Below, piece after piece: positions 3,387 through 26,673 of a stretch of 26,673 nucleotides of DNA; the first letter of the stretch is position 1; every line of letters starts with the position of its first letter. The DNA is taken from positions 1 through 26,673 of the IMG/VR virus record IMGVR_UViG_3300047550_006151. The stretch is one strand, 5' to 3'. The position numbers were made by a program, and so were the translations under genes. A model generated the notes under the pieces. That model saw nothing but the letters and a program-made list of their open reading frames with translations, was not told where the DNA came from and searched no databases. The stretch is from a virus.

Positions 3387-3400
3387 TCCGATACCTCATG

Positions 3401-5170: not shown

Positions 5171-5196
5171 CCTGAAGGTTGTTTTGAGATCATGCC

Positions 5197-5214
5197 AGCA
5201 CCGATACCGGTGCT
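5197..5214 (-). other. Small stem-loop at the end of the methyltransferase-like gene
   Basis: A 7-bp perfect stem with a four-base loop overlaps the stop codon of the gene ending at 5213. No T run follows on the minus strand, so a terminator function is weakly supported. It could instead protect or process the mRNA 3' end ahead of the gp19 promoter. Confidence 0.3.
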
Positions 5215-5827: not shown

Positions 5828-6083
5828 ACCTTTCGGCCCCGGCGACGATCGCCTTGTCTATGATGACCTTGGCAACGTCGAGGTAGGTTTCCCTGTGTGA
5901 TTCCGGTAGCTGGGCAATCAGCATGCCTAGATTGGTTGCCACCGCCGACAGTATGATGCCGACCGCAACGGAATCATCGGATAGATCCACGGTCTGTTGG
6001 TATGCTGTTGCGATATGATCGTAGATGGAATGATTAACTGCCAGCTGCAACGTTGCTATCTTTTCTAGATCCGTGTCATCCAT
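5790..6083 (-). CDS. Small helical protein of unknown function
   Basis: The 97-residue product begins MDDTDLEKIATLQLAVNH and appears entirely helical, with a moderately hydrophobic central segment (VAVGIILSAVATNLGMLIAQL, about residues 42-62) that is interrupted by polar residues and is not a convincing membrane span. I do not recognise the family. An in-frame start exists at 6152, but it would lie inside the preceding gene; the ATG at 6083 has AAGGA about ten bases upstream and overlaps the preceding stop by eight bases. It belongs to the three-gene unit of 6291, this gene and the methyltransferase-like gene. Confidence 0.55.
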   Translation of the reverse strand: MDDTDLEKIATLQLAVNHSIYDHIATAYQQTVDLSDDSVAVGIILSAVATNLGMLIAQLPESHRETYLDVAKVIIDKAIVAGAERFDENVYGQVGHA

Positions 6084-6291
6084 CGGATTTGGTCCTTTTC
6101 TTGGCGGTGGTCCGCATGAGAGCCGACACGGTTTCCGGATCTCCCTGATCATCCGGATGATTTTGTTTCAGCCATTCCTCGATTTCAAGGCAGGTCCTAT
6201 CATTGCGAGCCACGAGCCGCAGCATCTGGACGGCTTCCTCGAGCTGTAGCTCAAGGATCTGTATCCTGCTTTCATGTACCTTCCGTACCAT
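6076..6291 (-). CDS. Small coiled-coil protein of unknown function
   Basis: This 71-residue protein has a heptad-like N-terminal half (ILELQLEEAVQMLRLV) that could form a short coiled coil, then EIEEWLKQNHPDD and a basic C-terminus. I do not recognise the family. It is the first gene after the sheath terminator. A sigma70-like promoter places the -10 box six bases before the ATG, and there is no ribosome site, so the mRNA may be leaderless. It overlaps the next gene by eight bases, which supports it being real despite its size. Confidence 0.5.
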   Translation of the reverse strand: MVRKVHESRIQILELQLEEAVQMLRLVARNDRTCLEIEEWLKQNHPDDQGDPETVSALMRTTAKKRTKSDG

Positions 6292-6297
6292 TTAAGA

Positions 6298-6326
6298 ATT
6301 ATTAGACCGGCCGGGGGAAAGATCAA
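6298..6326 (-). promoter_or_regulatory. Sigma70-like promoter, leaderless type
   Basis: On the minus strand TTGATC (6326-6321), a 17-base spacer and AATAAT (6303-6298) are followed after six bases by the ATG at 6291. The -10 is 5 of 6 to TATAAT. The same -35, spacer and -10-to-ATG distance occur at the kinase gene (10563-10591). It lies between the sheath terminator and the small-gene unit. Confidence 0.5.
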
Positions 6327-6339
6327 CCCCGTCGATGAA

Positions 6340-6369
6340 AAAGAAAGGGGGCAATCGCCCCCTTTCTTT
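6340..6369 (-). terminator. Rho-independent terminator after the tail sheath gene
   Basis: A perfect 13-bp stem (6340-6352 with 6357-6369) and a four-base loop lie immediately after the sheath stop codon at 6371. On the minus strand the hairpin runs into TTTTT followed by C. This is a textbook intrinsic terminator and would isolate sheath mRNA from the genes downstream. Confidence 0.9.
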
Positions 6370-9300: not shown

Positions 9301-10474
9301 TGGCGCTGCCAATGGTGATGCGGCATATGTCGCCGGAATTCAGGGTCGGATTGCCGATCGATCCGGTAACGACCCTCGGTGCTGCTTCTCTCCATCCCCA
9401 TCCTGCGCAATCGCCGTCGGTGCTACCGACCTTGAACCACTGGGAGGTAACCGTTGAACCGGTCTTGTTGGAAACGGAGATCTTTTCCCATATCTCGTTC
9501 TTGTAGGTACCGTCAACACCGGCCAGGGTGTTAACGGCGAAATCACCAGCCGCGCCGTAGGCAGGCTTTGGAAGTATGTAGTTGGTCGGTTCCGAGGAGA
9601 GACCCAGGTTGGTCAGTATTCCTGCGGTGCTTCCGATCAGCGTGATGGCCTGATCAACGTCCGAGATTGCTATGCGGAGATTGTAAACGTCCCCATACTC
9701 GCTTTGATCGGAGTAGTATTTCTCGTTGCGAACGGTAACGCTTGCCGTGATGCCGGCAAGGTTAAGGGATGCGTTGCTGTTGATCTTGCTGGCGATGGTC
9801 GAGATGCTCATCCCGGCCGTTAGCGCGATAGACACGTTGTTGATGATGAGGTTGCCGCTAACACTGATGCAGCTGGAAGATCCGCTAGTGATCTTGGTCT
9901 GCGGCGGGATCGCCAGCAGATTTGGAATCACACATCCCTGCACCACGCGCTCGAGATTGATCTTGGAATTGATGACCAGAGGAGGCCTAGCTTGCCAGCT
10001 AAATGCTGGGTTCGGATTGCCGTTGCTGCGGAAGATTCCCCAGGTTGTCATCGACAGATCCAACCAGCTCTGTCCGGAGGTCGGAGGACCTGATGGTTCG
10101 GTGCTGGTCGGGATCAGCTCACCTAGGTCAACGTCGGCCCTGATGGCATATGCCTGGTTTGCGATGCCAAGGTATTCGTAAAGGGTGAACAGGCCAAGCT
10201 CGTTGAGCTGGTTATCCTGCTGAACGGTACCACCCGAGCTGTAGAACGTTGGGTTACCAAAGGTTTGCAAAGCGTCCCTCTGGCTGGTGATCAGATACAG
10301 CTTACCTGCGTTGGCCTTGGTGGTGCCAGGTGCGACAGCGACGGCGCTGCCCGGCTGTATTTTGTCCTTCTTGGTGGCGATCACGATGAGCGGAACCGTT
10401 CCCGGGCCGGCAGGGCCATATTGGCTCTCATCGGTTACGGTTACGGATACACCCGGAGAAACTAGAATTGCCAT
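6371..10474 (-). CDS. gp18: Tail sheath protein, greatly enlarged (T4 gp18-like)
   Basis: This protein forms the contractile outer tail. The ends match gp18: MAILVSPGVSVTVTD at the N-terminus, and from about residue 1220 YIPGRGLVVYGQKTL, LDRINVARLINYLK, FLFEPNDSQTR, RALYDFAVVCDE and AIEFIYIPIRIL. This is the conserved handshake domain that joins sheath subunits. At 1367 residues it is about twice T4 gp18 (659). The extra mass lies roughly between residues 120 and 1000 and is beta-rich, Gly/Ser/Thr/Val-rich sequence. It includes GGSGY-x-NDVLTV type repeats (about 490-640) and carbohydrate-binding- or Ig-like segments such as DGTLWYNT and DYDIWIDTNSAEYP (about 870-955). GAGG seven bases upstream and a late octamer support the start. 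The inserts probably project outward from the sheath. Confidence 0.93.
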   Translation of the reverse strand: MAILVSPGVSVTVTDESQYGPAGPGTVPLIVIATKKDKIQPGSAVAVAPGTTKANAGKLYLITSQRDALQTFGNPTFYSSGGTVQQDNQLNELGLFTLYEYLGIANQAYAIRADVDLGELIPTSTEPSGPPTSGQSWLDLSMTTWGIFRSNGNPNPAFSWQARPPLVINSKINLERVVQGCVIPNLLAIPPQTKITSGSSSCISVSGNLIINNVSIALTAGMSISTIASKINSNASLNLAGITASVTVRNEKYYSDQSEYGDVYNLRIAISDVDQAITLIGSTAGILTNLGLSSEPTNYILPKPAYGAAGDFAVNTLAGVDGTYKNEIWEKISVSNKTGSTVTSQWFKVGSTDGDCAGWGWREAAPRVVTGSIGNPTLNSGDICRITIGSAITAQITVPSAETLESFVGEINTAFNDIDVNATALAYAVGSKSYLRIINWSGTDIVLNDVSDQDGVGTPLADCGMPVSNTYWSSVIGTEYEPTFVASQVKTASAAVVAAGTGYLRGDALTVVADNPGDSVIDTVLAVASIKAVSAAVSAGGSGYSVNDVLTVSGTGTTPVKLKVTGVSTGAVTSVTIMQAGQYTGATPPSNPVSVSGGGGSSATFNLVWGVNTVTVNTPGQYLVYPDNPVAITGGTGTGATFDLTPTWYQSESFTIDPGTGPITIHVPAETSSPDGEITLDELITAINTVGFPSGPIVASNDGGYLKLTNTNKTSFTVEDLRGNPSDHDIGPLMHAGIPTGVTFGRALVFKGYSPNLTVPSDIRSIASTNVWINTTPANQGANLVTKQYSTGSWKTLNIKPNTGTVPMYASDADADIGFGSLKQIGTVYAQYNTDGTDPPEATVRLKKWDDTLSWVDLSYTPSASSPMGSPVDGTLWYNTDLRADIMVNDGTQWLGYKIQYPATDPNGPILSSSEPTSQSTGASLVDYDIWIDTNSAEYPVINRYDAMSASWILVDNTDQTTSKGVLFADARPNATCTQNGSTLPSDMVMSNDIDPDAPDALLYPAGMMLFNTRYSTNNVKVFRKNYLSSGTWRDRWVTYSGNMQDGAPYMGSAAQRAVVVKALQAVLVSNEEARAEETYFNLISTPGYIECIDEMITLNTDKKEIAFIVADTPATLQPTGTSFVNWANNQENVASNGADGLTSSTPYAAVYYPWGLGTNLDGAEVMVPPSMIALRTIAYNDQVAYPWFAPAGFNRGLVTGVASVGYLNGEGEYTPVKLNQGQRDVMYTNKINPIAYIPGRGLVVYGQKTLNPTATALDRINVARLINYLKYNLDILAKPFLFEPNDSQTRQNVTTTFNAFMQNLITLRALYDFAVVCDESNNTPARIDRNELWIDIAIKPEKAIEFIYIPIRILNTGDPMPNGTVA

Positions 10475-13127: not shown

Positions 13128-13820
13128 ATGTGCAATCATTGCGGAACTACGAATTATAGACGTATATACATCGAACATCGTGGCCCAATCCCCATTGACG
13201 ATGCTGGAAGAAAGTACGACATACATCATATTGACGGTAATAGAAAAAATAATTCAATAGATAACCTGATCGCAGTATCAGTTGAAGATCATTATAGAAT
13301 CCACTATCTTCAACACGATTATGGCGCATGTCTTAAAATTGCCCAGCGCTTACAATTCAGCAAAGAAGAATTGTCGAACCTCGCATCCCTTCATAACCTC
13401 AATAGGGTTAAAAATGGATCCCATCCGTTTGTCGGCGGAGAAATACAACGTAAAAGAATCGAGGATGGCACTCATCATTTTCTAAACAGCCAGTGGCAGA
13501 GAGAAAATGCATTAAAACGCGTCAAAAATGGAACTCATCATATGCTAGGCGCATCAAATCCTAGCCATGCTCGAGTCAAAAATGGAACTCATAATTTTCA
13601 AAATTCTGAGGCAGCTAGAGATCGACAAATCCGCAGGATTGTGTCGGGAAAACATCATTTTCTTAACAGGGTTCAATCCGCCGAACGAGCCAAGACTATT
13701 ATGGAGAATGGTAACCACAGTTGCCAATTAGAACGCCAATGCCCCCATTGTCAAAAAATCGGCAAAGGACCATCTATGGGACGTTGGCACTTTGATCGTT
13801 GTAAAAAGCGCCCAAACTAA
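13128..13820 (+). CDS. HNH homing endonuclease with VKNGTHH-type repeats
   Basis: This 230-residue protein carries an HNH core, DIHHIDGNRKNNSIDNL (residues 31-47), with His33/34, Asn46 and a following HYRIH as the likely catalytic and metal-binding residues. Residues 94-197 hold six repeats of about 17-21 residues with core (V/I)xxG(T/S/N/K)H(H/P), for example VKNGTHH. These are DNA-contacting repeats of the kind seen in phage homing endonucleases. The C-terminus has a zinc-finger-like CX2C...HX3C (residues 205-225). An N-terminal CX2C pair (residues 2-5) may also bind metal. The gene is visibly more AT-rich than its neighbours. It sits between divergent gp13 and gp14, has GGAG eight bases before the start, and has probably been inserted. 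Confidence 0.9.
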   Translation: MCNHCGTTNYRRIYIEHRGPIPIDDAGRKYDIHHIDGNRKNNSIDNLIAVSVEDHYRIHYLQHDYGACLKIAQRLQFSKEELSNLASLHNLNRVKNGSHPFVGGEIQRKRIEDGTHHFLNSQWQRENALKRVKNGTHHMLGASNPSHARVKNGTHNFQNSEAARDRQIRRIVSGKHHFLNRVQSAERAKTIMENGNHSCQLERQCPHCQKIGKGPSMGRWHFDRCKKRPN

Positions 13821-14976: not shown

Positions 14977-15603
14977 ATGGGCTTTGATTTTAACTTTACA
15001 CCGGAAAAGCTAGCGGCATGCATCAAAAATCCAAACATCGAACAATGGTACGGACCTCTGGTGGAGATATTGCCCCAGTATGCGATCAGCACGAGGCCGC
15101 GCGTGGCAGGCTGGCTGAGCCAGTGTGGCCATGAAAGCGGAGATTTCAAGATCCTGCAGGAGAATCTCAATTACAGTGCCAAGGGTTTGCTGGGCGTGTT
15201 CCCCAAGTATTTCCCGACCCAGGCATTGGCCGAGTCATACCAGCGCAAGCCAGAAATGATAGCCAACCGGGTCTATGGTGGCAGGATGGGAAATGGTGCG
15301 GAATCCACCGGAGACGGATGGAAGTACAGGGGCCGTGGATTGATACAGATCACCGGCAAGGAAAACTACACGAAATGCTCCATGGCACTTTACGGGGATG
15401 GATCTTTGCTGGAAAATCCAAATCTCCTCATGGACATCGACGGAGCCATACGATCAGCCTGCTGGTACTGGAACTCTAGGAACATCAACGTTGATGCCGA
15501 TAATGGTAACGTTCTCGCGATGACCAAGAAGGTCAACGGAGGCACCATCGGACTGGATGATCGCCAAGCCCGTTACGATCGCTGCATGGCAGCCCTTCTC
15601 TAG
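14977..15603 (+). CDS. GH19 endolysin (chitinase-like muramidase/glucosaminidase)
   Basis: The 208-residue protein is a glycoside hydrolase family 19 enzyme of the phage endolysin type, cutting peptidoglycan glycan strands in the periplasm at lysis. The catalytic Glu is in SQCGHESGDF (Glu53), and a second likely catalytic Glu is in LQENLNYS (Glu62). WKYRGRGLIQITGKENY (residues 115-131) is the substrate-groove block conserved in the family. The length is normal for a single-domain phage GH19. There is no signal peptide or N-terminal membrane segment, so a holin must release it; none is visible nearby. AAGGAG seven bases upstream supports the start. It lies between the neck gene gp14 and gp15, an unusual place for a lysis gene. 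Confidence 0.93.
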   Translation: MGFDFNFTPEKLAACIKNPNIEQWYGPLVEILPQYAISTRPRVAGWLSQCGHESGDFKILQENLNYSAKGLLGVFPKYFPTQALAESYQRKPEMIANRVYGGRMGNGAESTGDGWKYRGRGLIQITGKENYTKCSMALYGDGSLLENPNLLMDIDGAIRSACWYWNSRNINVDADNGNVLAMTKKVNGGTIGLDDRQARYDRCMAALL

Positions 15604-15615
15604 CCGGAATGGTGA

Positions 15616-15659
15616 CTGAATACCACTGGTAAATACCATCATGCAATATTGGTATTCAG
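15616..15659 (+). promoter_or_regulatory. Inverted repeat around the gp15 start codon
   Basis: CTGAATACCA (15616-15625) and its exact complement TGGTATTCAG (15650-15659) form a 10-bp stem whose 24-base loop contains the late octamer and the gp15 ATG. A smaller palindrome, TGGTAAATACCA (15627-15638), sits inside the loop. The result is four copies of TGGTA/TACCA in 44 bases. It could be an operator, or an RNA hairpin that exposes or hides the start; either reading is inference. Confidence 0.5.
15628..15635 (+). promoter_or_regulatory. Late promoter octamer GGTAAATA for gp15, leaderless type
   Basis: GGTAAATA is followed by five bases and the gp15 ATG. There is no Shine-Dalgarno sequence. It has the same octamer and the same spacing as the promoter at 4441-4448. 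Confidence 0.5.
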
Positions 15660-17296
15660 CCCAGCTTAGGCAGTATCGCCTCCAGTTCATAAGGGCATTC
15701 AGCAACTTCAGCGTCAAGACCGGTGCCATCGGTCCAAATGGTACCCAGGAGCTTCTCAGGGTCCCATGCCGGTACGGCGATCCGACCAGGATCGCATCGA
15801 GCATCGTCAGGGGCAACAGCGAGAACAAGGTCCTGTCGGTGCCCTTCATCAGCTGCTTCATCAGCGCGCTGAACATGAGTCCGTCCAGGCGCCAGGATCC
15901 ACAGTTGGTGCAACCGGTGCAAATAAACGAACGGCAATATGACGAGGAGCTCGGGCACTACACCAACGAGATCGGGAACAGATACACGGTAGAGCGCCTC
16001 ATGCCGGTCCCGTATGATCTCACCATGCAGGTGGACATATGGTCCAATAACCTCGACATCAAGGAACAGCTGGTCGAGCAAATACTGGTCCTATACAATC
16101 CGGCCGTTGACGTCCAAACATCGGTGAATCCCATTGATTGGACGGTTCTGACCATCATAGAAATGCAGGACAGCATCAACTGGAGCTCTAGGAGCATACC
16201 GGTTGGAACGGAAAATCCCATCGACGTGCTTACCATGCAATTCAAGCTGCCAATATGGATCAACCCTCCTGCTAAGATAAAGAAGCAGGCCATAATCGAG
16301 CAGATCGTCACCAACATCATCCAGGGCAGCAAGGATCCGCGCGCGATGGAATGGAACGAATACGAGTTCTTCTCAAGGACCATAACCACCCCTGGCCAGG
16401 CGACAATAAGGGTCACACCAAACACCGATGGGACTTATTCCTTTTATCTCTGCGACGATACCGTGTCAACCACCGACAGGGAAAACCTGCCAACCGTGAC
16501 ATTTGCGGCACAAAATCCTCAGTTTTTCAGCGGCATGTCCTTCATATGGAATGATAACACCATACGGATAAGCTCGACCGAGATCAACGGAGCCATCTCC
16601 GACATTCGATCCTGCATAGCCAACACTGACCTAAACTGCGTGATGTTCAATGACACTTCGTTCCAGCTTTTGAACATGACCGGAGGCGACAACGTTCTCG
16701 TTGACATCGTTCCCGGATCCCTGGCCGCCCTTGGATTGCAAGCCGGTACCTACCAGGGCAAAAAGCTAGCATGGTGGAGATTGTTGCAGCTATACGGGAC
16801 GGTCAGGCCTTATTTCACCTATGGATCAAATGCTAGCCAGATCAGGCTCAAGACCATCGAGGATATAGATCAGGTCAGTACCGACGTGGTAGGATGGATA
16901 GACCTCGACCCCCTTGATCAAAATCGCATCATATGGACGCCTGATCCACAGAGCTATCAACCAGCGACCCTTGCTCCAATAGATGCCATCGTGGATCCAC
17001 TTACCAGCGGACCAAACGTCAACCTACCTTTACCCTCGATCGGGCAGAGATATCTCCTAACCGAGGACATGGCGGATGGTAGCGTGAGCTGGGGACCGGC
17101 ATCCGGCAAGGAAAATGACATCATCGAGTTTGACGGGTCGACCTGGCAAATCGCATGGAATTCAAGTGAAAATCCCGATGGTTTGCAGTATGTCCTGAAT
17201 AATAGATCAGGTCGCATGTATAGATGGTATAATGGATACTGGTCTCCGGTCGTGGAAAACAAGTATCTCCAGGGTTACTGGAGGATTTCACTATGA
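15641..17296 (+). CDS. gp15: Tail sheath stabiliser/terminator (T4 gp15-like)
   Basis: T4 gp15 caps the sheath and joins tail to neck. The N-terminal 200 residues match it: MQYWYSAQLRQYRLQFIRAF, FSNFSVKTG, LLRVPCRYGDP, YDLTMQVDIWSNN, VEQILVLYNPA and FKLPIWINPPAKIKK, corresponding to the FYNSSFRRY, FSNIQIK, RVPITYA, YELSIFTRYED, VEQILPYFQP and FEVNGWMYPP segments of T4 gp15. At 551 residues it is about twice T4 gp15 (272). The extra C-terminal part includes a flagellin/adhesin-like segment (about 255-375) and a terminal beta module (about 463-541) with IIEFDGSTWQI and RMYRWYNGYW, similar to modules in the sheath and gp14. No ribosome site is present. It overlaps the nucleotidyltransferase start by ATGA. 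Confidence 0.85.
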   Translation: MQYWYSAQLRQYRLQFIRAFSNFSVKTGAIGPNGTQELLRVPCRYGDPTRIASSIVRGNSENKVLSVPFISCFISALNMSPSRRQDPQLVQPVQINERQYDEELGHYTNEIGNRYTVERLMPVPYDLTMQVDIWSNNLDIKEQLVEQILVLYNPAVDVQTSVNPIDWTVLTIIEMQDSINWSSRSIPVGTENPIDVLTMQFKLPIWINPPAKIKKQAIIEQIVTNIIQGSKDPRAMEWNEYEFFSRTITTPGQATIRVTPNTDGTYSFYLCDDTVSTTDRENLPTVTFAAQNPQFFSGMSFIWNDNTIRISSTEINGAISDIRSCIANTDLNCVMFNDTSFQLLNMTGGDNVLVDIVPGSLAALGLQAGTYQGKKLAWWRLLQLYGTVRPYFTYGSNASQIRLKTIEDIDQVSTDVVGWIDLDPLDQNRIIWTPDPQSYQPATLAPIDAIVDPLTSGPNVNLPLPSIGQRYLLTEDMADGSVSWGPASGKENDIIEFDGSTWQIAWNSSENPDGLQYVLNNRSGRMYRWYNGYWSPVVENKYLQGYWRISL

Positions 17297-18048
17297 AAAC
17301 CAATCTCCTCGAGATCGAGGGGGCCATCAGCATGGACGAGTTCGGCAAGATCTTCACACCGGAGATCAAGAGAATTATCGGTATCGTCCGCAAGTATGGG
17401 TTTGACATACGGGTCGTGGGCGGAGCCGTCAGGGATTTCCTGCTTGGTAGGACCCCCAGGGACGTTGATTTTGCCACCGATGCCAGCCCGGCTGAGCTCA
17501 TGTTCATATTCGACCTCGAGGATATCGAGCACGATGATGGTGGTATAAGGCACGGTACCATCAAGGCCGTCTTTGGCAACAACAAGATCGACGTGACCAC
17601 CATCGACTATCGGATGCACGTCAGGCAGGGCCGCGTGGTTACCAAGCACGGATCCTCGTGGAAGGATGATAGCAAGCACAGGGATCTCACCATTAATTCC
17701 ATGAGCGTTGACATGGATGGGAATCTGTATGATTACCACGGAGGCCAGGAGGATCTCAGGAGGGAAATGGTGAGGTTCACCTCGGACCCCCAGGAGCAGA
17801 TCGACGAGGATCCAAACAGGATACTACGATGGTTCAAGGCAATCTCGATGTTTGATAACCCGAGATGGACCAAGAAGGATCGCATGGTCATCGAGAGAAA
17901 CGCTGCCAAGGTCGCCGATGTCATGGATAGCAAGAGGAGCCAAAAGCTCCTGGCTAGCATCAAATCGAGCGAAAGATACCCGAGGATACTGGGGCTCATG
18001 TGCCAAACTGGCGTGGCCAAGCATCTCGATCTAAATTGCACCATCTAG
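17293..18048 (+). CDS. Short class II nucleotidyltransferase (CCA-adding/poly(A)-polymerase type)
   Basis: CCA-adding enzymes build or repair the 3' CCA of tRNA; poly(A) polymerases of the same fold tail RNA. The head domain is intact: VVGGAVRDFLLGRTPRDVDF (residues 41-60), with Gly43/Gly44 and the DxD metal ligands Asp57 and Asp59. The flexible-loop RDLTINSM block (130-137) and EDPNRILR (172-179) in the neck, which reads the incoming nucleotide, follow. The protein ends at residue 251, whereas bacterial enzymes are around 400, so most of the tRNA-binding body and tail are missing. The gene is coupled to gp15 by ATGA overlap. Which RNA it acts on cannot be told from sequence. Confidence 0.85.
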   Translation: MKTNLLEIEGAISMDEFGKIFTPEIKRIIGIVRKYGFDIRVVGGAVRDFLLGRTPRDVDFATDASPAELMFIFDLEDIEHDDGGIRHGTIKAVFGNNKIDVTTIDYRMHVRQGRVVTKHGSSWKDDSKHRDLTINSMSVDMDGNLYDYHGGQEDLRREMVRFTSDPQEQIDEDPNRILRWFKAISMFDNPRWTKKDRMVIERNAAKVADVMDSKRSQKLLASIKSSERYPRILGLMCQTGVAKHLDLNCTI

Positions 18049-18065
18049 AGATCCAGTGATATACT
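18036..18065 (+). promoter_or_regulatory. Weak sigma70-like promoter before the glycosyltransferase genes
   Basis: TATACT (18060-18065) lies nine bases before the ATG at 18075, with a poor -35 TTGCAC (18036-18041) at an 18-base spacing. The gene has no ribosome site, so a near-leaderless transcript is possible. The -35 match is weak. Confidence 0.35.
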
Positions 18066-18074
18066 TGATCCATC

Positions 18075-18932
18075 ATGGATCAATCAACTCCCCGCGACCT
18101 GATCATCAGCGCATACACCAACTACGACTGGAGCAAGATAAGATACTGGGCCAACAGCATCGACCGGTGTGGATTTACCGGAGACAAGGCCATGATCGTT
18201 TACAACAGCGATCAAAACACGGTACAGCGCCTAGTTGATCTAGGATTCAAGGTTTGGGCATTTTCCAGGGACTCGGCAACCGGTAACTTCGTCTGGGAAC
18301 ACGATCTCATAATAGTGGTGCAGAGATTCTATCATCTCTGGTATTACCTGGATCAGCTACCATCTGATCACTATCGATACGTGATCAGCACCGATTGCAA
18401 GGACGTGGTGTTCCAGACCGATCCGACCAAATGGCTGGAAAGAAACATCGGAGATCGAGACATCGTCGCTAGCTGTGAAAGCCTAAGATATCGTGATGAG
18501 CCGTGGGGGGACGACAATCTGCAGGGCAGTTACCCGATGGTGCATGCCAGGCTGCGTGAAAATCCAATATGGAACTGCGGCGTGCAGGCCGGGAGGATGC
18601 AGGCCATCAAGGATCTATGGTTGCAAATATGGCTGACCTGCAAGGCAGGAGGACGACCAAATCCGGATCAAGCGGCATACAATCTCCTGCTTAATTCAAC
18701 GCCGTGGTCCAGGATTACCAAATTTGCCATGAGCGAGGATGGATGGGCTTGCCAGGCAGGTACCACGGTTGATCCTAGCAAGATCGGTGTGTTTCGGTCA
18801 AAGCTCCTCGAAGCCGAGCCGATGTGGCAGGACGGTTTCTCCAAGACCAGCCTAGGAGAGACGCATGCGATACTGCATCAGTGGGATCGGGTACCATCGT
18901 GGTCATCCGAGATAGAAAAGAAATATGGGTGA
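18075..18932 (+). CDS. Probable GT-A-fold glycosyltransferase
   Basis: This 285-residue protein starts with a Rossmann-like DLIISAYTNYDW segment and contains YVISTDCKDVVFQTDPTKWL (residues 102-121). The T-D-x-x-D-V-x-F-Q-x-D-P pattern is shared by several GT-A-type glycosyltransferase-like families, where the Asp pair binds the metal and nucleotide sugar. WNCGVQAGRMQAIKDLW (about 172-188) and GGRPNPDQAAYNLLL (about 197-211) resemble the later 'N-x-G-x-x-x-G' and 'D-Q' blocks of those families. The family and sugar are not assigned. It opens the plus-strand glycosyltransferase block, and its end overlaps the next start by eight bases. Confidence 0.65.
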   Translation: MDQSTPRDLIISAYTNYDWSKIRYWANSIDRCGFTGDKAMIVYNSDQNTVQRLVDLGFKVWAFSRDSATGNFVWEHDLIIVVQRFYHLWYYLDQLPSDHYRYVISTDCKDVVFQTDPTKWLERNIGDRDIVASCESLRYRDEPWGDDNLQGSYPMVHARLRENPIWNCGVQAGRMQAIKDLWLQIWLTCKAGGRPNPDQAAYNLLLNSTPWSRITKFAMSEDGWACQAGTTVDPSKIGVFRSKLLEAEPMWQDGFSKTSLGETHAILHQWDRVPSWSSEIEKKYG

Positions 18933-19923
18933 TCAAATGGAAGTGAATCTAGAAGACCTTTATCAGCAACAGGATCGGGCCATGAACGAGCCCATTCCGA
19001 TGCCGCAGTACCGTCCGGGAAGAAGCATAGTGACCAGCTGCTATCGTGCGGAAATACCAGGGACATACATATTGCTCAGCGAGATCAGGAGATTGGAGAT
19101 CAACCTCCCGGTGGAGGTTTTTTACCGAGAAGGTGAGCTAAACGACGATGAAACCTCGGAGCTCGCAAGGATATCCCCGGGACAGATCACCTTCAAGAAG
19201 GTGCAGGGGGCGGCACCGGACTTCAATGATAGGTGGGGCAACACCAAGGGATGGAGCACCAAGGTGCTTGCCATACTGGAAAGCGAATATGCCGAAAACC
19301 TATGGATAGACAGTGATAACGTTCCCACCAGGAACTGCATGGATCTCTTTGACGACCCCGAGTATGCCAAGAAGGGCAGCATGTTTTGGAGGGATGTCTA
19401 CAGCATCGACAGGGCCGATCAATATTATAGCGGTTCAGATATGTGGAAGCTGTTCAGGGTATCACCAAACGATGGGGAACCATTTGAAAGCGGCCAGTTC
19501 CTGGTCAACAAGCCGATGGTATGGACCCAGCTTTCGGTGATGATGCACTACACCCAGAACAGCCAGATCTATTACAGATTTGGCGGGGATGCCGAGTGCT
19601 GGAGGATGGCCTGGCAGTTCGTTAGCATCATGAAACAGGGATACCACGCCAGGTTTAACTACCATGCTAGCGATGAGGTGCCCTACGGTATGATGCCGTA
19701 TGGTCCGTTCCACAAGGGCGTGCAGAACCAATGGCACAAGTATGGCGGCGGATCGGTGATGGTGCAGCGTGATCGTGCCGGTGCTGACCTCTTCAACCAT
19801 CGGAATCTCAACAAGTGGAGATGGAACGAGGAAAACCCCTACAATGAGGATGTCGTCAACGAGATGACCTATCACATGATCATGAGGCACATCAAGGCCA
19901 AGTATGGTGTTCCCCGTGGTTGA
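18925..19923 (+). CDS. GT71-like (MNN1-type) glycosyltransferase
   Basis: The 332-residue protein resembles alpha-mannosyltransferases of the fungal MNN1 type (GT71). KGWSTKVLAILES (108-120) is the usual donor-adjacent helix; ENLWIDSDNVPTRNCMDLFD (124-143) holds the DxD metal motif Asp129/Asp131; GSMFWRDVYS (151-160) and PFESGQFLVNK (186-196) match the family's 'GxxFWxD' and 'ESGQxxxxK' blocks. Donor specificity cannot be taken from the fungal relatives. The ATG at 18925 overlaps the preceding gene by eight bases; an ATG at 18937 is possible. Neither has a clear ribosome site, so translation may be coupled. Confidence 0.75.
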   Translation: MGDQMEVNLEDLYQQQDRAMNEPIPMPQYRPGRSIVTSCYRAEIPGTYILLSEIRRLEINLPVEVFYREGELNDDETSELARISPGQITFKKVQGAAPDFNDRWGNTKGWSTKVLAILESEYAENLWIDSDNVPTRNCMDLFDDPEYAKKGSMFWRDVYSIDRADQYYSGSDMWKLFRVSPNDGEPFESGQFLVNKPMVWTQLSVMMHYTQNSQIYYRFGGDAECWRMAWQFVSIMKQGYHARFNYHASDEVPYGMMPYGPFHKGVQNQWHKYGGGSVMVQRDRAGADLFNHRNLNKWRWNEENPYNEDVVNEMTYHMIMRHIKAKYGVPRG

Positions 19924-21073
19924 GGTCCTGTCCAGATTTACCTTTCCCGAATCATGGAATCGCCGGCGAGAACCTGCCAGGCCGATTGATCTAAGGGTCG
20001 GTGAATGGGAGACCATGTATGACTATGATTCGGTGTGGAATGACGCCGTGCAGATCAATCCATCAACCCTGTTGCTGATCGGACCACCTCTTTATGCCAC
20101 GGCCGACTGGTTGAGATCATCATGCTCTCTTACTGATGCGAGCGGTAACGTGCTCGATTGGCAGCATCGAGAGATGGACCGGGCATGCTTGACCATGGTC
20201 AGGACCAACGATTGGATCGATCGCATCAACGTGCGGAGCCCGTCGTCGATCGATCAAATGGTGGTCAATCATCCATCATCAGATTTCTCCGGCCTCAAGG
20301 TCATAGTCACGATAAGCAAGGACCATCCGGTCTCCTGGTTGAAACAATGGATCGACTATCACCGTGTCGTCCATAACATCGAGGGGTTGTTGCTCTACAA
20401 CAATCGAAGCACGCTGTATTCATCAAGCGATCTCGAGGCCCAGCTACGTCGCGATGACATGGTGATCAAGGTGGTTGATTATGATGTTCCATTTGGTATC
20501 ATGGGAGGCGGTATATGGGAATGGAAGGGTCGACGCGGAACCCATCTCCCTTGGGACAGCGACTTTTCCCAATACGTCATGCTCGAGCACGCCAAGTGGA
20601 GATATCTCCATTGCGCCAAGATGGCGATCAATGCCGACACCGATGAGCTGCTCTACATCAAGGGAGCAACTATGGACGACCTGGCCAACTACTGCGAGTC
20701 CAACGAGGATTCGGTCTGGCTCTACAACGGTACCTGGGTCGAACCGATCGACAGCACGACCGGCCAGATTGCCAACACCGTTCCGTTTGACCAGAGATTG
20801 TTTGAAAACTACTGGCACACCAACCACAGCGAGCAACGTGGCATCGGCGTTAAGTGGGCGCTCAATCCACAGAAGAACATGGGCTACCAGTGGCACCTTC
20901 ATCGTACCTTTGGTCCAAACAAGTCCACCGATTTCATAGGATTTGGCCACTATTTGGCAATGAACACGTCCTGGAGCTGGAAGAGGGACGAATTCCTCGG
21001 AGATTCGTCATCTTTGGTGGAGCTATCCGAGATAAAAGAAAATCTAATGACATGGAAAGCCAAGAGAGGTTGA
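19904..21073 (+). CDS. GT92-like glycosyltransferase
   Basis: The 389-residue protein has an N-terminal region of about 125 residues with no recognised motif, then a glycosyltransferase domain resembling GT92 (former DUF23). KVIVTISKDHPVSWLKQWID (132-151) and YHRVVHNIEGLLLYNN (152-167) match the usual 'ExxxxLxEWIxYHxxxGVxxxxxYxN' block. KWRYLHCAKMAINADTDELL (231-250) matches the 'WxxxxDxDE' metal-binding region, with Asp245, Asp247 and Glu248. LYNGTWVEPI and a DFIGFGHYLAMN segment follow. The start overlaps the preceding gene by 20 bases and has AAGG six bases upstream. The N-terminal domain may fix acceptor specificity. Confidence 0.7.
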   Translation: MVFPVVEVLSRFTFPESWNRRREPARPIDLRVGEWETMYDYDSVWNDAVQINPSTLLLIGPPLYATADWLRSSCSLTDASGNVLDWQHREMDRACLTMVRTNDWIDRINVRSPSSIDQMVVNHPSSDFSGLKVIVTISKDHPVSWLKQWIDYHRVVHNIEGLLLYNNRSTLYSSSDLEAQLRRDDMVIKVVDYDVPFGIMGGGIWEWKGRRGTHLPWDSDFSQYVMLEHAKWRYLHCAKMAINADTDELLYIKGATMDDLANYCESNEDSVWLYNGTWVEPIDSTTGQIANTVPFDQRLFENYWHTNHSEQRGIGVKWALNPQKNMGYQWHLHRTFGPNKSTDFIGFGHYLAMNTSWSWKRDEFLGDSSSLVELSEIKENLMTWKAKRG

Positions 21074-21077
21074 TCAG

Positions 21078-21728
21078 ATGCGCTGCGCCCTAGTAACCAT
21101 ACACGATGCCAACTACAAAACGCTAGCCGATCTAACCTGGCACAGGAATCGAGAGCTGTATGCCGCCCGGCACGGGTACGATGCAATCGTGCAAACCGAA
21201 AACTTCAAGGTTGCCAACCTGGGTTGGGCAAAGATAGCCTTGCTGCTTGAGATCATGGATCGCAAGGAGCATGACCTGCTACACTGGAGCGGCACTGATA
21301 CCATGATAACCAATTTCACGATACCCTTGACCGAGTTCGCATACGATGGGTATCACATAACCATATCCACGGATTTCAACGGGATACAAAACGACAGCTT
21401 CCTGGTGAGGAACACTCCTGAGGCAAGGGGCTGGCTGCAAATGATAATGGATAAGATGCCGGAATTCCTCTCCCATCCTTATCTCGAGCAGGGCGTGATG
21501 ATGGATACATATCAGCAATACTCCGACATAATAAAGGTGGTACCGCAGAGGTTCATCAACGCCTATCACTATCCATTGTATCAAAACAAGGGTGCGAAGG
21601 GCAGCCTCGATAGGATGGGGTTCAGCGGGCAATGGCAAAAGGGAGATTTCCTGATACACTGTCCGGATCAAAAGATGGACGTTAGGATGAACCTCTTCAA
21701 CCAGATCATCAACATGGTCGTGATCTAA
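21078..21728 (+). CDS. GT34-like glycosyltransferase with altered DxD motif
   Basis: This 216-residue protein resembles GT34 (galactosyl/xylosyl/mannosyltransferases of the GMA12/MNN10 type). RHGYDAIVQ (31-39), GWAKIALLLEIM (49-60), STDFNGIQNDSFLVRNTPEARGWL read in order, the EQGV block near 137-141, and WQKGDFLIHCPD near residue 190 all fit. The expected 'W-L-D-A-D' metal motif is WSGTD (70-74): the first Asp is replaced by Gly72 and only Asp74 is kept. The enzyme may bind metal differently or be impaired. AGAGG eight bases upstream supports the start. It is the last gene before a 37-base gap and the sugar-pathway operon. Confidence 0.7.
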   Translation: MRCALVTIHDANYKTLADLTWHRNRELYAARHGYDAIVQTENFKVANLGWAKIALLLEIMDRKEHDLLHWSGTDTMITNFTIPLTEFAYDGYHITISTDFNGIQNDSFLVRNTPEARGWLQMIMDKMPEFLSHPYLEQGVMMDTYQQYSDIIKVVPQRFINAYHYPLYQNKGAKGSLDRMGFSGQWQKGDFLIHCPDQKMDVRMNLFNQIINMVVI

Positions 21729-21765: not shown

Positions 21766-23103
21766 ATGAGCAACATCAATGACATCCTCAGGATGGTTAA
21801 GGAACACGTGGATTCAAAGGCCGGTAAGATATGGAGGCCCGGTGAGGACACCGTGCAGTATGCTGGACCGTATTTCGATCATCGGGAATATGTTTCCGCG
21901 ATAGAAAGCCTGCTCAATGGTTGGTTGGTCCTTGGAAAGGACGCCCAAAAATTCGAACATCATTTCCCAAGGCAGTTTGGTAAGGATTTTGGTATCCTAA
22001 CCAATAGCGGTAGCTCGAGCAATCTCATACAGATGAGCTCCCTGCGCAGCAAGAGATTGTGGAACCTCCCCGAGGGAACGAAGGTGCTGACCCCGATAGC
22101 CGGTTTCCCGACAACAGTGAATCCGATATTCCAGGTCGGGTTTTCCCCGGTGTTCGTTGATATTGATCTCGACGGGTTGAATCTGGACCTAGATCAGGTC
22201 GAGAAGGCGCTCGAGGCACATCCTGATTGTAAGGTCATCACCTTTGCCCACGTGCTTGGCAATCCTCCAAACATGGATCGCTTGATGGATATCATCAAGC
22301 GCCACGGCATGATCCTGCTCGAGGATTGCTGTGATGCATTGGGCAGCACCTACAAGGGACAACCCCTCGGTAGCTTCGGAGAGATGGCCAGCTGCTCGTT
22401 CTATCCAGCGCATCACATCACCGGAGGAGAGGGAGGATTCGTGGCAACCAAGACCGCTGACCAGGAAAAGGTGGTTCGCAGCTTCAGGGAGTGGGGTAGG
22501 GGTTGCTATTGCGTCGGGCAAAAGGCCAATCTGCTGAAGAACGGTACCTGCGGTTGCCGTTTCAAGGAGTGGGTATCAGCCATGCCCGGGGAGATATTCG
22601 ACCACAAGTACGTGTATGACGAGATCGGTTACAATCTCAAACCAATTGAGCTACAGGCCAGCATGCTTCTGGTACAGATGTCAAAGCTGCCGGAGATTGG
22701 TAGCCTTCGCCGGAGAAACCATGCTCGCCTATCGGAAATATTCAAACCATACGAGGAGCACCTCATCCTTCCCACGGCAACGGAAGGCAGCGATCCAAGC
22801 TGGTTCGCGTTTGCGATAACCATCAGGGATGGATCTCCGGTTACCAGGAGACAACTGGTCGACTGGTTTGAAACCGCCAAGATACAAACGAGACCGTATT
22901 TTGCCGGAAACATCATGCTGCAACCAGCATACGATCATCTCGTTGATCCGGTGCAGGTCGCGGGACTGTTTCCTAACGCGACGAAGGTCATGCGCGATAC
23001 CTTCTTCCTGGGTACCAGCCCGGTGGTCACTCCGGAACAGATTGACTATATCGGTGAAAAGACCACTGAATTCATGAATCGACTAAAGCAAGGATCGATA
23101 TGA
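21766..23103 (+). CDS. rfbH: Fe-S/PMP sugar 3-dehydratase (RfbH/AscC/E1 type)
   Basis: In O-antigen pathways this enzyme removes the C3 hydroxyl of CDP-4-keto-6-deoxy-D-glucose, using pyridoxamine phosphate and a [2Fe-2S] cluster. SFYPAHHITGGEGG (211-224) has His216 where DegT/StrS aminotransferases have the PLP-binding Lys, the hallmark of this subgroup. The cluster ligands are seen as Cys189-X57-Cys247-X1-Cys249, which is the known C-X57-C-X1-C spacing. The fourth Cys (262) is at X12 instead of X7 and is followed by another at 264. The length, 445 residues, matches RfbH (437). The C-terminal domain is normal. The partner reductase is not in the window. An ATGA overlap joins it to the ThDP enzyme. 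Confidence 0.88.
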   Translation: MSNINDILRMVKEHVDSKAGKIWRPGEDTVQYAGPYFDHREYVSAIESLLNGWLVLGKDAQKFEHHFPRQFGKDFGILTNSGSSSNLIQMSSLRSKRLWNLPEGTKVLTPIAGFPTTVNPIFQVGFSPVFVDIDLDGLNLDLDQVEKALEAHPDCKVITFAHVLGNPPNMDRLMDIIKRHGMILLEDCCDALGSTYKGQPLGSFGEMASCSFYPAHHITGGEGGFVATKTADQEKVVRSFREWGRGCYCVGQKANLLKNGTCGCRFKEWVSAMPGEIFDHKYVYDEIGYNLKPIELQASMLLVQMSKLPEIGSLRRRNHARLSEIFKPYEEHLILPTATEGSDPSWFAFAITIRDGSPVTRRQLVDWFETAKIQTRPYFAGNIMLQPAYDHLVDPVQVAGLFPNATKVMRDTFFLGTSPVVTPEQIDYIGEKTTEFMNRLKQGSI

Positions 23104-24959
23104 CAGATACCATGAAAATCGCAGACGTAATCGCCGAGACCCTTGAAACACTTGATATAAGGCATGCATTTGGCATAATCGGTGCCGGTAACGTGCATAT
23201 CTTCGAGGCCATCGCCAAGCGAGGCTATACCGAGATAATTTGCGTTCATCACGAACAGGCCGCCGCGATGGCGATGCAGACCTATTATCGAACCAGCGGG
23301 AGGTTAGCGGCTTGCCTGTCGACCACCGGAGCCGGGTCAACGAATGCCGTCACGGGCGTGGTATCGGCATGGGCCGATTCCATACCAGGTATCGTCATAG
23401 CCGGCAACGAGAATTCCCAGCATACCAGCCATGCCAATCCATTGAGGATGTGGGGAGTGCAGGGATACGACAGCGTTCACATGGTGGAAAGGGTTGCCAA
23501 GTATTCCGTCAGGATATCCAATCCGGTTGACGTGGTTTATGAATTGCAGAAATGCGCCCACATTGCCCTGGATCAGAGACCCGGACCGGTGTGGATCGAG
23601 ATTCCGATGGACATACAGAGCAGCGTCATCGACAGATCCCTGCTGAGGTCGTTCTCCTCTCCCGGCCCGACACCATCAAGGCGTTCCGAGATAACCGATC
23701 AGCTAGATCGGGTCATTCGGTCCCTGATAACGAGTGATCGTCCGATCCTATGGCTAGGACATGGCATCAAGCTGGCGGGAGCTGATGACAAGCTGCCTGT
23801 TCTACTTGATAAGCTGGGAATACCGGTGTTGGTCAGCTGGGCAGGGATCGACATGGTCGACAGCGACCATCCCCTCGTTTATGGCCGGGCGGGTGTTTAC
23901 GGACAGCGTGCCGCGAATTTCGTCCTGCAAAACAGCGGATATGTTCTAGCGATTGGTACCAGGCTTGCGATACCCCAGATCGGATATAATCTGACCGAGC
24001 TTGCCAGGGACGCGGAGATCGACATGGTCGACATCGACCCAACGGAGATCAACAAGCTGGCTGGCCGCATCAGGGAAGGCATCGTGTGCGATGCCGGAGA
24101 ATTCATCGACCTACTGCTGGAAAGAATGGCCGATGTGACCGTGCCGTTCAAGCGCCGATGGCTGGAAAGGTGCGACATCTATCGCAATGACTATCCATGG
24201 GTTGATGTTGAGCACAAGGATGTTGATGGATTCATCAACTCCTATCGATTCATGGAAAGGTTGAACGCTTTCTTCAAGCCTGATCAGGTCGTGGTCACCG
24301 ACATGGGAACGGCCCTGCTGAGCGGCCATCAGGTGCTTAGGTTCAAGCCAGGGCAGCGTTTGATGACCAGCACTGGCCTGGGAGAGATGGGTTACGGATT
24401 ACCAGCTGCGATAGGAGCGAGCGTTGCATTGGGCAACGGCGAGGTCATGTGCCTGAACTGTGACGGCGGAATGATGATGAACCTGCAGGAATTGCAAACG
24501 ATGGTGCATCACAAGCTGCCGATTAAGCTGTTCATTTTCAACAATGACGGTTATCTAATGATCAAGCACACGCAAAGGACCCTGTTTAGCGGTAATACCG
24601 TCGGGGTTAATCGATCCACCGGCGTGAGCTGCCCGGATTTCAGCAAGCTTGCTGCCGCGTTTGACATACCATCATACCAGATCAAGGGGTGGGAAGAATG
24701 CGATGAGGTCCTGCAAAAGGTGCAGGACGAGCCCGGCCCGGTGATATGCGAGGTGTTCATGCACCCAGAGCAGCTTTTCTCACCGAAGCTGGGATGGTCC
24801 ATACTCAGCGATGGCCGGCAGATATCCAGCCCGCTGGAGGATCTATCTCCGCTGATCGCGCCGGATCGCCTAACCGCCGCCATGATCATCGGAGTGCATG
24901 AGAAATCCAAGGCAAGATTCAATGATTTCTACAAGGACATTCCTCCCTGTGGATTATGA
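23100..24959 (+). CDS. Thiamine diphosphate enzyme, acetolactate synthase/YerE-like
   Basis: The 619-residue protein has the three-domain plan of acetolactate synthase-type enzymes. CVHHEQAAAMAMQ (48-60) contains the catalytic Glu52 that activates thiamine. LSTTGAGSTNAVTGVVSAWAD (residue 73 on) follows, then a central domain (about 200-345). TSTGLGEMGYGLPAAIGA (423-440) and CDGGMMMNLQELQTM with IFNNDGY (454-485) form the Mg/ThDP site, with Asp455 and Asn482; Cys replaces the usual first Gly of GDG. YerE, of this family, transfers a two-carbon unit from pyruvate to C4 of a CDP-keto-sugar. Here the aldolase two genes on would supply a longer 2-oxo acid. The start overlaps the dehydratase stop by ATGA. 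Plain acetolactate synthase is the alternative. Confidence 0.88.
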   Translation: MTDTMKIADVIAETLETLDIRHAFGIIGAGNVHIFEAIAKRGYTEIICVHHEQAAAMAMQTYYRTSGRLAACLSTTGAGSTNAVTGVVSAWADSIPGIVIAGNENSQHTSHANPLRMWGVQGYDSVHMVERVAKYSVRISNPVDVVYELQKCAHIALDQRPGPVWIEIPMDIQSSVIDRSLLRSFSSPGPTPSRRSEITDQLDRVIRSLITSDRPILWLGHGIKLAGADDKLPVLLDKLGIPVLVSWAGIDMVDSDHPLVYGRAGVYGQRAANFVLQNSGYVLAIGTRLAIPQIGYNLTELARDAEIDMVDIDPTEINKLAGRIREGIVCDAGEFIDLLLERMADVTVPFKRRWLERCDIYRNDYPWVDVEHKDVDGFINSYRFMERLNAFFKPDQVVVTDMGTALLSGHQVLRFKPGQRLMTSTGLGEMGYGLPAAIGASVALGNGEVMCLNCDGGMMMNLQELQTMVHHKLPIKLFIFNNDGYLMIKHTQRTLFSGNTVGVNRSTGVSCPDFSKLAAAFDIPSYQIKGWEECDEVLQKVQDEPGPVICEVFMHPEQLFSPKLGWSILSDGRQISSPLEDLSPLIAPDRLTAAMIIGVHEKSKARFNDFYKDIPPCGL

Positions 24960-24963
24960 TGGC

Positions 24964-25833
24964 ATGAAGCTGAAGGTAGGTATCATTGGTACTGGAAACA
25001 TCGGGACGGATCTCCTAATCAAGATCATGAGATCTCCTGATCTCACCTGCACGCTGTTCTCGGGTCGAACGCTCGGATCGGCCGGGATGGCCAGGGCCAT
25101 GGATCTTGGCATCAGGGTCTCCGACCAAGGGATATTGCCGATCATACAGGATCCAAGCGTGTGTGACTTGGTCGTCGATTGTACTTCGGCACAGTCACAT
25201 GTCGAGCACTGGAGGATCCTCGAGGATCTGGGAAAGACCACGATAGACATGACCCCGGCCAAGCTTGGAGAGCTATGCATTCCGGCCATTTCTACCAAGG
25301 TTTGGGATGCATCAAACACCTGCAACATCAACATGGTGACCTGCGGAGGGCAGACGACCGTTCCGATCGCCCATGCCCTTTCGCAGGTACATGACATTGA
25401 ATACATAGAGGTAGCATCAAGCATTGCCTCTTTGAGCGCCGGTCCGGCTACCCGCAGGAATCTGGATGAATACGTTGACACGACGGAAGCCGCCCTGAGG
25501 GCATTTTCCGGAGCAAAGGGCAGCAAGGCCATATTGATACTGAACCCGGCCATCCCACCGATCGACATGGTCACCACCATATATGCCAGGATCAACGATC
25601 CAGATCTGTCCAAGATCAACGCGTCGATTGATCGAATGATCAGATCGGTGAGGGAATACGTGCCGGGTTATCAGCTCATCGTCCCTCCAAGGATAAAGGA
25701 TGGCACCGTTGTGGTGTCGGTAAAGGTAACGGGGGCCGGAGATTACCTACCGCCGTATGCCGGTAATTTGGACATAATCAACTGCGCTGCCATCAGGGTG
25801 ATGGAGATGATATCACGATCGAGGTTACCATGA
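24964..25833 (+). CDS. mhpF: Acylating acetaldehyde dehydrogenase (DmpF/MhpF type)
   Basis: The enzyme interconverts acetyl-CoA, NADH and acetaldehyde, and works in a channelling complex with a DmpG-type aldolase. GIIGTGNIGTDLLIKI (6-21) is the NAD-binding loop. NMVTCGGQTTVPIAHALS (123-140) contains the catalytic Cys127, followed by the diagnostic ASSIASLSAGPATRRNLDEY (151-170) and GAGDYLPPYAGNLDIINCAA (257-276), both family signatures. The length, 289 residues from the ATG at 24964, is slightly short of the usual 300-plus. An in-frame start at 24898 lies inside the preceding gene and adds residues that do not fit the family, so 24964 is preferred. The stop overlaps the aldolase ATG. Confidence 0.92.
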   Translation: MKLKVGIIGTGNIGTDLLIKIMRSPDLTCTLFSGRTLGSAGMARAMDLGIRVSDQGILPIIQDPSVCDLVVDCTSAQSHVEHWRILEDLGKTTIDMTPAKLGELCIPAISTKVWDASNTCNINMVTCGGQTTVPIAHALSQVHDIEYIEVASSIASLSAGPATRRNLDEYVDTTEAALRAFSGAKGSKAILILNPAIPPIDMVTTIYARINDPDLSKINASIDRMIRSVREYVPGYQLIVPPRIKDGTVVVSVKVTGAGDYLPPYAGNLDIINCAAIRVMEMISRSRLP

Positions 25834-26673
25834 CCAGGAGCATAATCATAAACGATTCAACGCTGCGCGATGGTAACCATGCCGTGAGGCATCAGCTCAC
25901 GATCGACAACATTCGGAGCTACTGCGCTGCTGCCGAAGCCGCCGGTGTTGCCGTTGTTGAGGTCGGACATGGCAACGGTCTTGGTGCTTCCAGCATTCTG
26001 GTCGGTCAAGCGGCATGCAGCGACGACGAGATCTTTTCTGCGGCAAGGAGCAGCTTGATCAATACCAGGTTAAGCACGCATGTCATCCCCGGATTCGCGA
26101 CCATCAAGAGGGATCTCACCAAGGCGATCGATCTCGGAATTGACGTGTTTCGGATAGCGGCACACGTAACCGAAGCTGACATCTGCCAGCGCCACATTGA
26201 GCATGTGAGGAAGGTTGATCGAACGGCGATCGGGGTTCTCATGATGAGCCACATGGCGGATGTTGGAACGTTGGTGGCCGAGGCCACGAAGATGGAAGCA
26301 TACGGTGCCCAGGCACTGGTGATCATGGATTCATCCGGTACGTATCTTCCTGAAGATGTTAGAGAGCGCATAACCTCGCTAAAAAGCGGCATCAGCATCC
26401 CCGTTGGTTTCCATGCCCACAACAACCTAGGGCTTGCGATCGCAAACAGCCTCGCGGCAATCGAGGCAGGAGCTGACATGCTGGATGCCAGCATACGAGG
26501 GTTTGGCGCCGGTGCTGGAAATGCGCAGCTAGAGGTCCTGGTAGCAGTCCTGCATCGCATTGGATATCATACCGGGATAGACCTCTACAAGATACTCGAT
26601 GCGGCCGAGATGGCCGAGAGGGAGTTCAATCCGATATCGCCCCACATAAGCCCCCTTTCGATAATCAGCGGAC
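25830..26673 (+). CDS. mhpE: 4-hydroxy-2-oxovalerate aldolase (DmpG/MhpE type), cut by the window end
   Basis: Visible are 281 codons of an enzyme of about 340. It reversibly joins pyruvate and acetaldehyde to 4-hydroxy-2-oxovalerate, passing acetaldehyde through a tunnel to or from the dehydrogenase. DSTLRDGNHAVRHQ (9-22) provides Arg13, metal-binding Asp14 and the catalytic His21. EVGHGNGLG (44-52), VIPGFATIKRDL (85-96) and GFHAHNNLGLAIANSLAAI (193-211) follow, the latter with metal ligands His195 and His197. DASIRGFGAGAGNAQLE (219-235) is also conserved. All catalytic residues checked are present; the C-terminal complex-forming domain is beyond the edge. The start overlaps the dehydrogenase stop by ATGA. 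More pathway genes may continue to the right. Confidence 0.92.
   Translation, partial: MTRSIIINDSTLRDGNHAVRHQLTIDNIRSYCAAAEAAGVAVVEVGHGNGLGASSILVGQAACSDDEIFSAARSSLINTRLSTHVIPGFATIKRDLTKAIDLGIDVFRIAAHVTEADICQRHIEHVRKVDRTAIGVLMMSHMADVGTLVAEATKMEAYGAQALVIMDSSGTYLPEDVRERITSLKSGISIPVGFHAHNNLGLAIANSLAAIEAGADMLDASIRGFGAGAGNAQLEVLVAVLHRIGYHTGIDLYKILDAAEMAEREFNPISPHISPLSIISG

Follow-up and report, generated by a model that had tools for sequence, protein, structure and literature searches.

What could a phage make with an RfbH-type 3-dehydratase, a ThDP-dependent carboligase and the enzyme pair DmpF and DmpG, encoded one after another at positions 21766-26673 beside a set of glycosyltransferases? The window analysed here is an entire IMG/VR record of 26,673 bases, with no sequence past either end, and a sequence-only reading of it had proposed that the four genes build a nucleotide sugar with a four-carbon, erwiniose-like branch. 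The four open reading frames are present and intact as that reading described them, apart from DmpG, which is cut by the contig end (Table 1). We consider them, with a probability of about 0.7, to be the visible part of a phage-borne nucleotide-sugar branching module that forms a C4 branch.

Table 1. Genes of the putative sugar-branching operon and the neighbouring glycosyltransferase genes
Feature	Position	Strand	Basis or remark
Putative glycosyltransferase-like protein	18075..18932	+	weak PLOD-GT similarity, E=0.0013; ortholog in L167
Mannosyl_trans3-type glycosyltransferase	18925..19923	+	PF11051, 82 bits; ortholog in L167
Probable glycosyltransferase, weak GT92 similarity	19904..21073	+	PF01697, E=0.05 only; ortholog in L167
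GT34-type glycosyltransferase, directly upstream of RfbH	21078..21728	+	PF05637, 54 bits
RfbH-type PMP/[2Fe-2S] NDP-4-keto-6-deoxyhexose 3-dehydratase, phage clade	21766..23103	+	RfbH equivalog
YerE-like ThDP-dependent carboligase, JanthE subfamily	23100..24959	+	CDG motif, residues 454-456
DmpF, acetylating acetaldehyde dehydrogenase	24964..25833 (ORF opens 24898)	+	TIGR03215
DmpG, 4-hydroxy-2-oxovalerate aldolase	25830..26673, 3' end cut by contig end	+	TIGR03217

The genes had also been described as coupled by ATGA overlaps. Such overlaps were found in frame between RfbH and the ThDP gene (23100-23103) and between DmpF and DmpG (25830-25833), but not between the ThDP gene and DmpF, where the ATGA at 24956-24959 lies in a different frame from that of DmpF, whose conserved start follows it. 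The phage context claimed for the operon is supported by the rest of the window, which is filled with structural and packaging-neck genes; tail sheath, tail tube, head closure, head-tail adaptor and tail sheath stabilizer proteins were recognised, as well as an endolysin, and GC content is even throughout, with no shift at the operon. By its sheath protein, the nearest annotated phages are Atu_ph07, Phosso and PA5oct (records of 287-490 kb), and a 452.8-kb IMG/VR contig is closer still, with a sheath identity of 71% and a gene order shared from the tail genes up to the glycosyltransferase ending at 21073. Because of these structural genes, the sheath kin and the syntenic relative, the window is, by sequence criteria, a fragment of a jumbo myophage. 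Its tail sheath protein (6371-10474) is unusually long, at 1367 aa, and sheath similarity is confined to the C-terminal half. All syntenic relatives lack the HNH endonuclease gene at 13128-13820, which has the appearance of a mobile homing endonuclease inserted between virion genes.

The product of the first gene scores 443.3 bits against the NCBIfam RfbH equivalog (cut-off 423), and its best PDB matches are 3bcx and 3bb8, the CDP-4-keto-6-deoxyglucose 3-dehydrase of Yersinia. The catalytic His217, which replaces the lysine of aminotransferases, is a histidine in all 25 viral sequences aligned, and the [2Fe-2S] cysteines Cys189, Cys247, Cys249 and Cys262 are present in 25/25 viral and 62/62 bacterial sequences. 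The passed cut-off, the catalytic histidine and the four cysteines support the earlier assignment as an RfbH-type dehydratase, and from the His217/Cys pattern we judged an aminotransferase unlikely. In the tree, the 24 RfbH proteins of the ThDP-linked viral set (24/24) form a single clade, separate from the bacterial RfbH compared. Phage RfbH is common in IMG/VR, where at least 593 loci were found, paired with several kinds of ThDP enzyme.

The second gene product is most similar, among proteins of solved structure, to JanthE of Janthinobacterium sp. HH01 (8rph, 945 bits), with 69.8% identity across 600 aligned residues, and it carries the same rare ThDP-binding motif, CDG in place of GDG. Seven residues named as active-site residues of JanthE (PMC12188165), namely V121, Y268, P293, Y297, H494, F564 and K567, are all kept, at positions 120, 267, 292, 296, 490, 560 and 563 of the window protein, and the catalytic Glu52 is invariant in the aligned sequences. 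JanthE is a YerE-like ligase that accepts various ketones and takes 4-hydroxy-2-oxovalerate in vitro with benzaldehyde as acceptor, and its physiological substrates were given as unidentified (PMC12188165). This close kinship and the conserved active site support the view of the phage protein as a predicted YerE-like, ketone-accepting ThDP ligase. Among annotated cultured phages, no homolog with the CDG motif and no true DmpFG homolog was found; the matches were acetolactate synthases of less than 30% identity, apparently in bacterial records. Several GenBank records labelled as phage (AFYI01000001-6, OR844991-OR851175 and AGRM01000003) gave matches to acetolactate synthases, DmpFG and oxaloacetate decarboxylase that look bacterial or contaminated.

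DmpF and DmpG, whose usual role is catabolic, were assigned by equivalog scores of 370 bits (cut-off 282) and 308 bits (cut-off 286), respectively. The catalytic cysteine of DmpF, in the motif TCGGQ, is invariant in 43/43 viral and 72/72 bacterial sequences, and Arg13, Asp14, His17, His195 and His197 of DmpG are kept in all bacterial sequences and in every viral sequence covering them. Since the contig ends inside DmpG, the window lacks the C-terminal communication domain of this protein; full-length DmpG proteins in relatives mostly have 332-346 aa, and the DmpG_comm domain was found in one of them (L042). The proposal that DmpFG supply a C4 donor is supported by analogy, as JanthE takes 4-hydroxy-2-oxovalerate (PMC12188165) and ErwE of Pectobacterium atrosepticum uses donors of this kind (PMC12247030).

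Gene linkage points in the same direction. IMG/VR searches yielded 43 loci with the ThDP protein and 32 with DmpG, and DmpF and DmpG adjoin the ThDP gene in 50 of 51 distinct viral ThDP loci, the single exception being a contig that breaks off at the ThDP gene. In GTDB genomes, 311 relatives of the ThDP protein were detected; of the 80 best, 74 adjoin DmpF and DmpG, and RfbH lies within the stored DNA of 63. Bacterial ThDP loci with DmpFG or RfbH span Proteobacteria, Bacteroidota, Verrucomicrobiota and others. With the ThDP-DmpF-DmpG order recurring at these frequencies, the arrangement is not a matter of chance, and the complete RfbH-ThDP-DmpF-DmpG order was also seen in viral contigs of 141 and 327 kb. 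Phage ThDP ligases with the CDG motif lie beside DmpFG in 31 of 31 loci, as against none of 10 GDG ligases near phage RfbH, which came from an RfbH search and comprise those with enough flanking DNA; the Fisher p of about 1e-9 is descriptive, since the sequences are related and the association comes from few, phylogenetically non-independent lineages. This linkage supports 4-hydroxy-2-oxovalerate as the likely natural donor of the JanthE subfamily.

E3, a 4,6-dehydratase, the final reductase, RfbF and RfbG are all absent from the window. The sequence-only reading had pointed to the DNA beyond position 26673 as the place to look for such partners and had assumed a CDP-linked, E3-dependent scheme; apart from the reductase, relatives speak against both. 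No protein with a FAD_binding_6 or Fer2 domain was found in 24 related viral records, some of them longer than 150 kb, and CDP-type RfbF and RfbG occurred among related phage records only in L046, which carries a GDG ligase and was treated separately, being only weakly related, of doubtful viral origin and without a match to tail sheath or terminase. In the bacterial loci, RfbF was found in 62 of 80 and RfbG in 60 of 80, and an E3-like flavin/iron-sulphur reductase candidate lies within the stored DNA in 24 of 80, a count from a regular-expression motif search that may miss or over-count. Partners of this type thus probably do not lie just to the right of DmpG. The near relatives carry instead an RmlB-like 4,6-dehydratase, in most cases immediately ahead of the ThDP gene, but after DmpG in L002 and L003; an epimerase-family SDR follows DmpG, and the two genes flank the block in most relatives. 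The viral RmlB-like proteins have the triad STDE in 45/45 cases, which we take to mark a dTDP-type 4,6-dehydratase, and the bacterial RfbG proteins have [TS][TS]DK in 60/60. The L002 protein (15437-16378) scores 301 bits as a dTDP- versus 61 bits as a CDP-glucose 4,6-dehydratase, and that of L003 likewise scores far higher as the dTDP type. Because of the uniform triad and these scores, the phages probably do not follow the CDP/E3 scheme but use dTDP sugars and host electron donors; for the window phage, the relatives suggest the same. E3 can be dispensable: SpnQ takes a ferredoxin or flavodoxin reductase pair in its place (PMC8987622). The reductase predicted beyond DmpG has a candidate in the SDR that follows DmpG in L002 (13746-14552) and L003. 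Near the block of L003, a 327-kb phage, a gene at 17515-19095 joins a sugar nucleotidyltransferase-like domain to a phosphotransferase (APH-like) domain in one protein, and similar long open reading frames with a partial match were seen in three other records.

In the pathway that we propose, a 4,6-dehydratase encoded outside the window (RmlB-type and probably dTDP-type in relatives) would form an NDP-4-keto-6-deoxyglucose, from which RfbH would remove the hydroxyl at C3, drawing electrons from ferredoxin/flavodoxin-type reductases of the host, a source suggested because no E3 was found in related phages. DmpF would convert acetyl-CoA to acetaldehyde, which DmpG would condense with pyruvate to give 4-hydroxy-2-oxovalerate, and the JanthE-like ThDP enzyme would decarboxylate this compound and transfer its C4 unit to the 4-keto carbon of the sugar. 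The new ketone would then be reduced by the SDR encoded after DmpG in relatives, and the finished sugar would be used by the soluble glycosyltransferases next door. Because JanthE takes this donor and ErwE makes erwiniose, C4 branching by the window enzymes is plausible by analogy, and as chemistry it is not new; erwiniose is a candidate product only.

The donor could also be a different one. JanthE accepts pyruvate and other keto acids as well (PMC12188165), and among NCBIfam models the ThDP protein scores best as an acetolactate synthase, so that it might add only a C2 unit from pyruvate, as for yersiniose, or make acetolactate, with DmpFG serving otherwise. We regard this as unlikely: the acetolactate synthase score, 337 bits, falls under the cut-off of 538, acetolactate synthase is the next solved structure after JanthE at 255 bits, with no AHAS above that, and DmpF and DmpG are near-constant companions of this ligase subfamily, both in phages and across many bacterial phyla, but are missing where another ThDP ligase lies beside phage RfbH. 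Another reading takes DmpFG as a catabolic auxiliary pair that converts 4-hydroxy-2-oxovalerate to pyruvate and acetyl-CoA during infection, with the sugar genes as incidental neighbours. That would be the textbook direction for the pair. The aldolase does appear by itself among the auxiliary metabolic genes of one virome study (PMC13303688), but no other meta-cleavage gene occurs among the annotated genes around the block, and the strict linkage to the ThDP ligase and nucleotide-sugar genes in the viral loci makes this very unlikely.

The lack of E3 could further mean that RfbH turnover fails or that RfbH transaminates, as SpnQ does act as an aminotransferase in the absence of a reductase (PMC8987622), in which case the product would be C4-branched but not a 3-deoxy sugar. 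The absence of FAD_binding_6 and Fer2 proteins from the related phage records favours such an outcome, and the reductase pairs on which SpnQ runs weigh against it; the active-site histidine in place of lysine and the four invariant cysteines of the viral proteins fit selection for the reductive dehydratase reaction, so we hold it to be highly improbable. Least credible of all is an origin of the operon as bacterial DNA that misassembly or contamination attached to a phage contig. The contig does end within the block, and ThDP-DmpF-DmpG has beta- and gammaproteobacterial kin, but the nearest kin of all three are viral, GC is unchanged, the same four-gene order stands in the 141- and 327-kb viral contigs, and the RfbH gene, which overlaps the ThDP gene, belongs to a virus-only clade and is 79.5% identical to the one behind the GT34 ortholog of an independent phage contig of 453 kb. 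Contamination is rejected by this synteny and the virus-only RfbH clade.

That 453-kb contig (L178, IMGVR_UViG_3300032315_001715) also bears on how the proposed branching module came together. A ThDP search of the phage-backbone relatives gave no match and ran without a positive control, so the slot was read directly in L178. There, the orthologous GT34 gene (3204-3854, 70.7% identity) and RfbH stand as in the window, and RfbH is followed at 5191-6359 by two short genes with similarity to the alpha and beta parts of 2-oxoacid dehydrogenase E1, which stand in place of ThDP-DmpF-DmpG; an SDR and then an RmlB-like gene come next. The split ketoacid-dehydrogenase-type ThDP enzyme was found in at least 94 viral loci, with RfbH directly upstream in 41 of the 80 kept, and ThDP enzymes of the alpha-ketoacid-dehydrogenase type carry out keto-sugar branching for aldgamycin and kibdelomycin (PMC12247030). 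Because the same RfbH precedes different ThDP types in syntenic phages, the branching enzyme after phage RfbH looks interchangeable. In the trees, the window ThDP, DmpF and DmpG proteins sit among beta- and gammaproteobacterial sequences; in that of the ThDP enzyme, the other 36 viral sequences are placed elsewhere, and two separate viral acquisitions are not claimed, as the AU test does not reject a single viral clade (p=0.17). Since RfbH belongs to the virus-only clade and the other three fall among proteobacterial sequences, the operon is, as far as the trees reach, a mosaic of an old phage RfbH and an exchanged branching cassette. We tentatively suggest, at somewhat less than even odds, a more general scheme in which large uncultured phages run a branching pathway of their own, probably dTDP-linked and E3-independent, with a phage-specific RfbH and interchangeable ThDP cassettes, be it the JanthE type with DmpFG (C4 branch), the GDG type or the split ketoacid-dehydrogenase type, whose swapping would change the branch length.

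The glycosyltransferase neighbours hint at where the sugar may go. The gene with weak GT92 similarity is conserved together with the phage backbone, and the GT34 gene is syntenic in L178. A crude test predicted no multi-pass membrane protein among 1,105 open reading frames of 57 viral loci but 59 in the bacterial loci, and no flippase, polymerase or exporter accompanies the block in the viral loci. With no exporter at hand, attachment may take place within the cell, or the sugar may use the export route of the host, and the soluble glycosyltransferases suggest that it decorates the virion or another intracellular acceptor. An FkbM-type methyltransferase often stands directly after DmpG or the SDR (L018 14510-15151; cluster c8, 21 loci), so the sugar may be methylated.

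C4-branched 3,6-dideoxysugars belong to the rarest sugars of bacterial surfaces, and a natural donor has been assigned for few of the enzymes that make them; for the JanthE subfamily, the linkage reported here provides a likely one. It also indicates that viruses assemble such sugars with a gene set unlike the bacterial one, and that phages swap the branching enzyme with one another. Should the sugar coat virions or alter the surface of the host, it would be relevant to receptor use, superinfection exclusion and phage recognition. The rfbH gene and the 4-hydroxy-2-oxovalerate aldolase gene occur singly in virome auxiliary-gene lists (PMC10653327, PMC11295528, PMC13303688). In a literature search that was thin on subscription journals, no account of the combined block in phages was found, so that the earlier impression of an undescribed pathway holds for phages but not for the branching chemistry, which has been described in bacteria; a recurring, apparently swappable sugar-branching block in viruses seems new.

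Compared with known systems, the closest counterpart of the phage ligase is JanthE (8rph/8rpi/8rpj), which shares 70% identity, the CDG motif and the active-site residues and is bacterial, whereas the phage copy sits with a phage-clade RfbH. In published chemistry, which is the basis of this comparison, the pathway of ErwE also places a hydroxylated C4-type 2-keto acid unit on a 4-keto-3,6-dideoxyhexose nucleotide: ErwE joins a hydroxy 2-keto acid to CDP-4-keto-3,6-dideoxyglucose to give erwiniose, and it differs from the phage module in being bacterial, CDP-linked and closed to pyruvate, according to a 2025 review (PMC12247030). YerE of Yersinia pseudotuberculosis likewise acts as a ThDP ligase at C4 after an RfbH-type 3-dehydratase, but uses pyruvate as C2 donor for yersiniose A (PMC12247030), in a CDP-linked pathway with a dedicated E3 and no DmpFG partner described. 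The phage DmpF and DmpG genes are adjacent and keep the catalytic residues of both enzymes, as in the DmpG-DmpF complex, and are proposed to work in the synthetic direction. The aldgamycin and kibdelomycin branching enzymes find their match in the split enzyme of this fold in the ThDP slot of L178, not in the window. T4-like cyanophages such as S-SM2, P-TIM68 and RN05-S resemble the window phage in carrying sugar genes, which there form nucleotide-sugar/LPS clusters with epimerases, glycosyltransferases and RfbH-like or transketolase-like genes; what sets the window apart from them is its CDG ThDP ligase with DmpFG.
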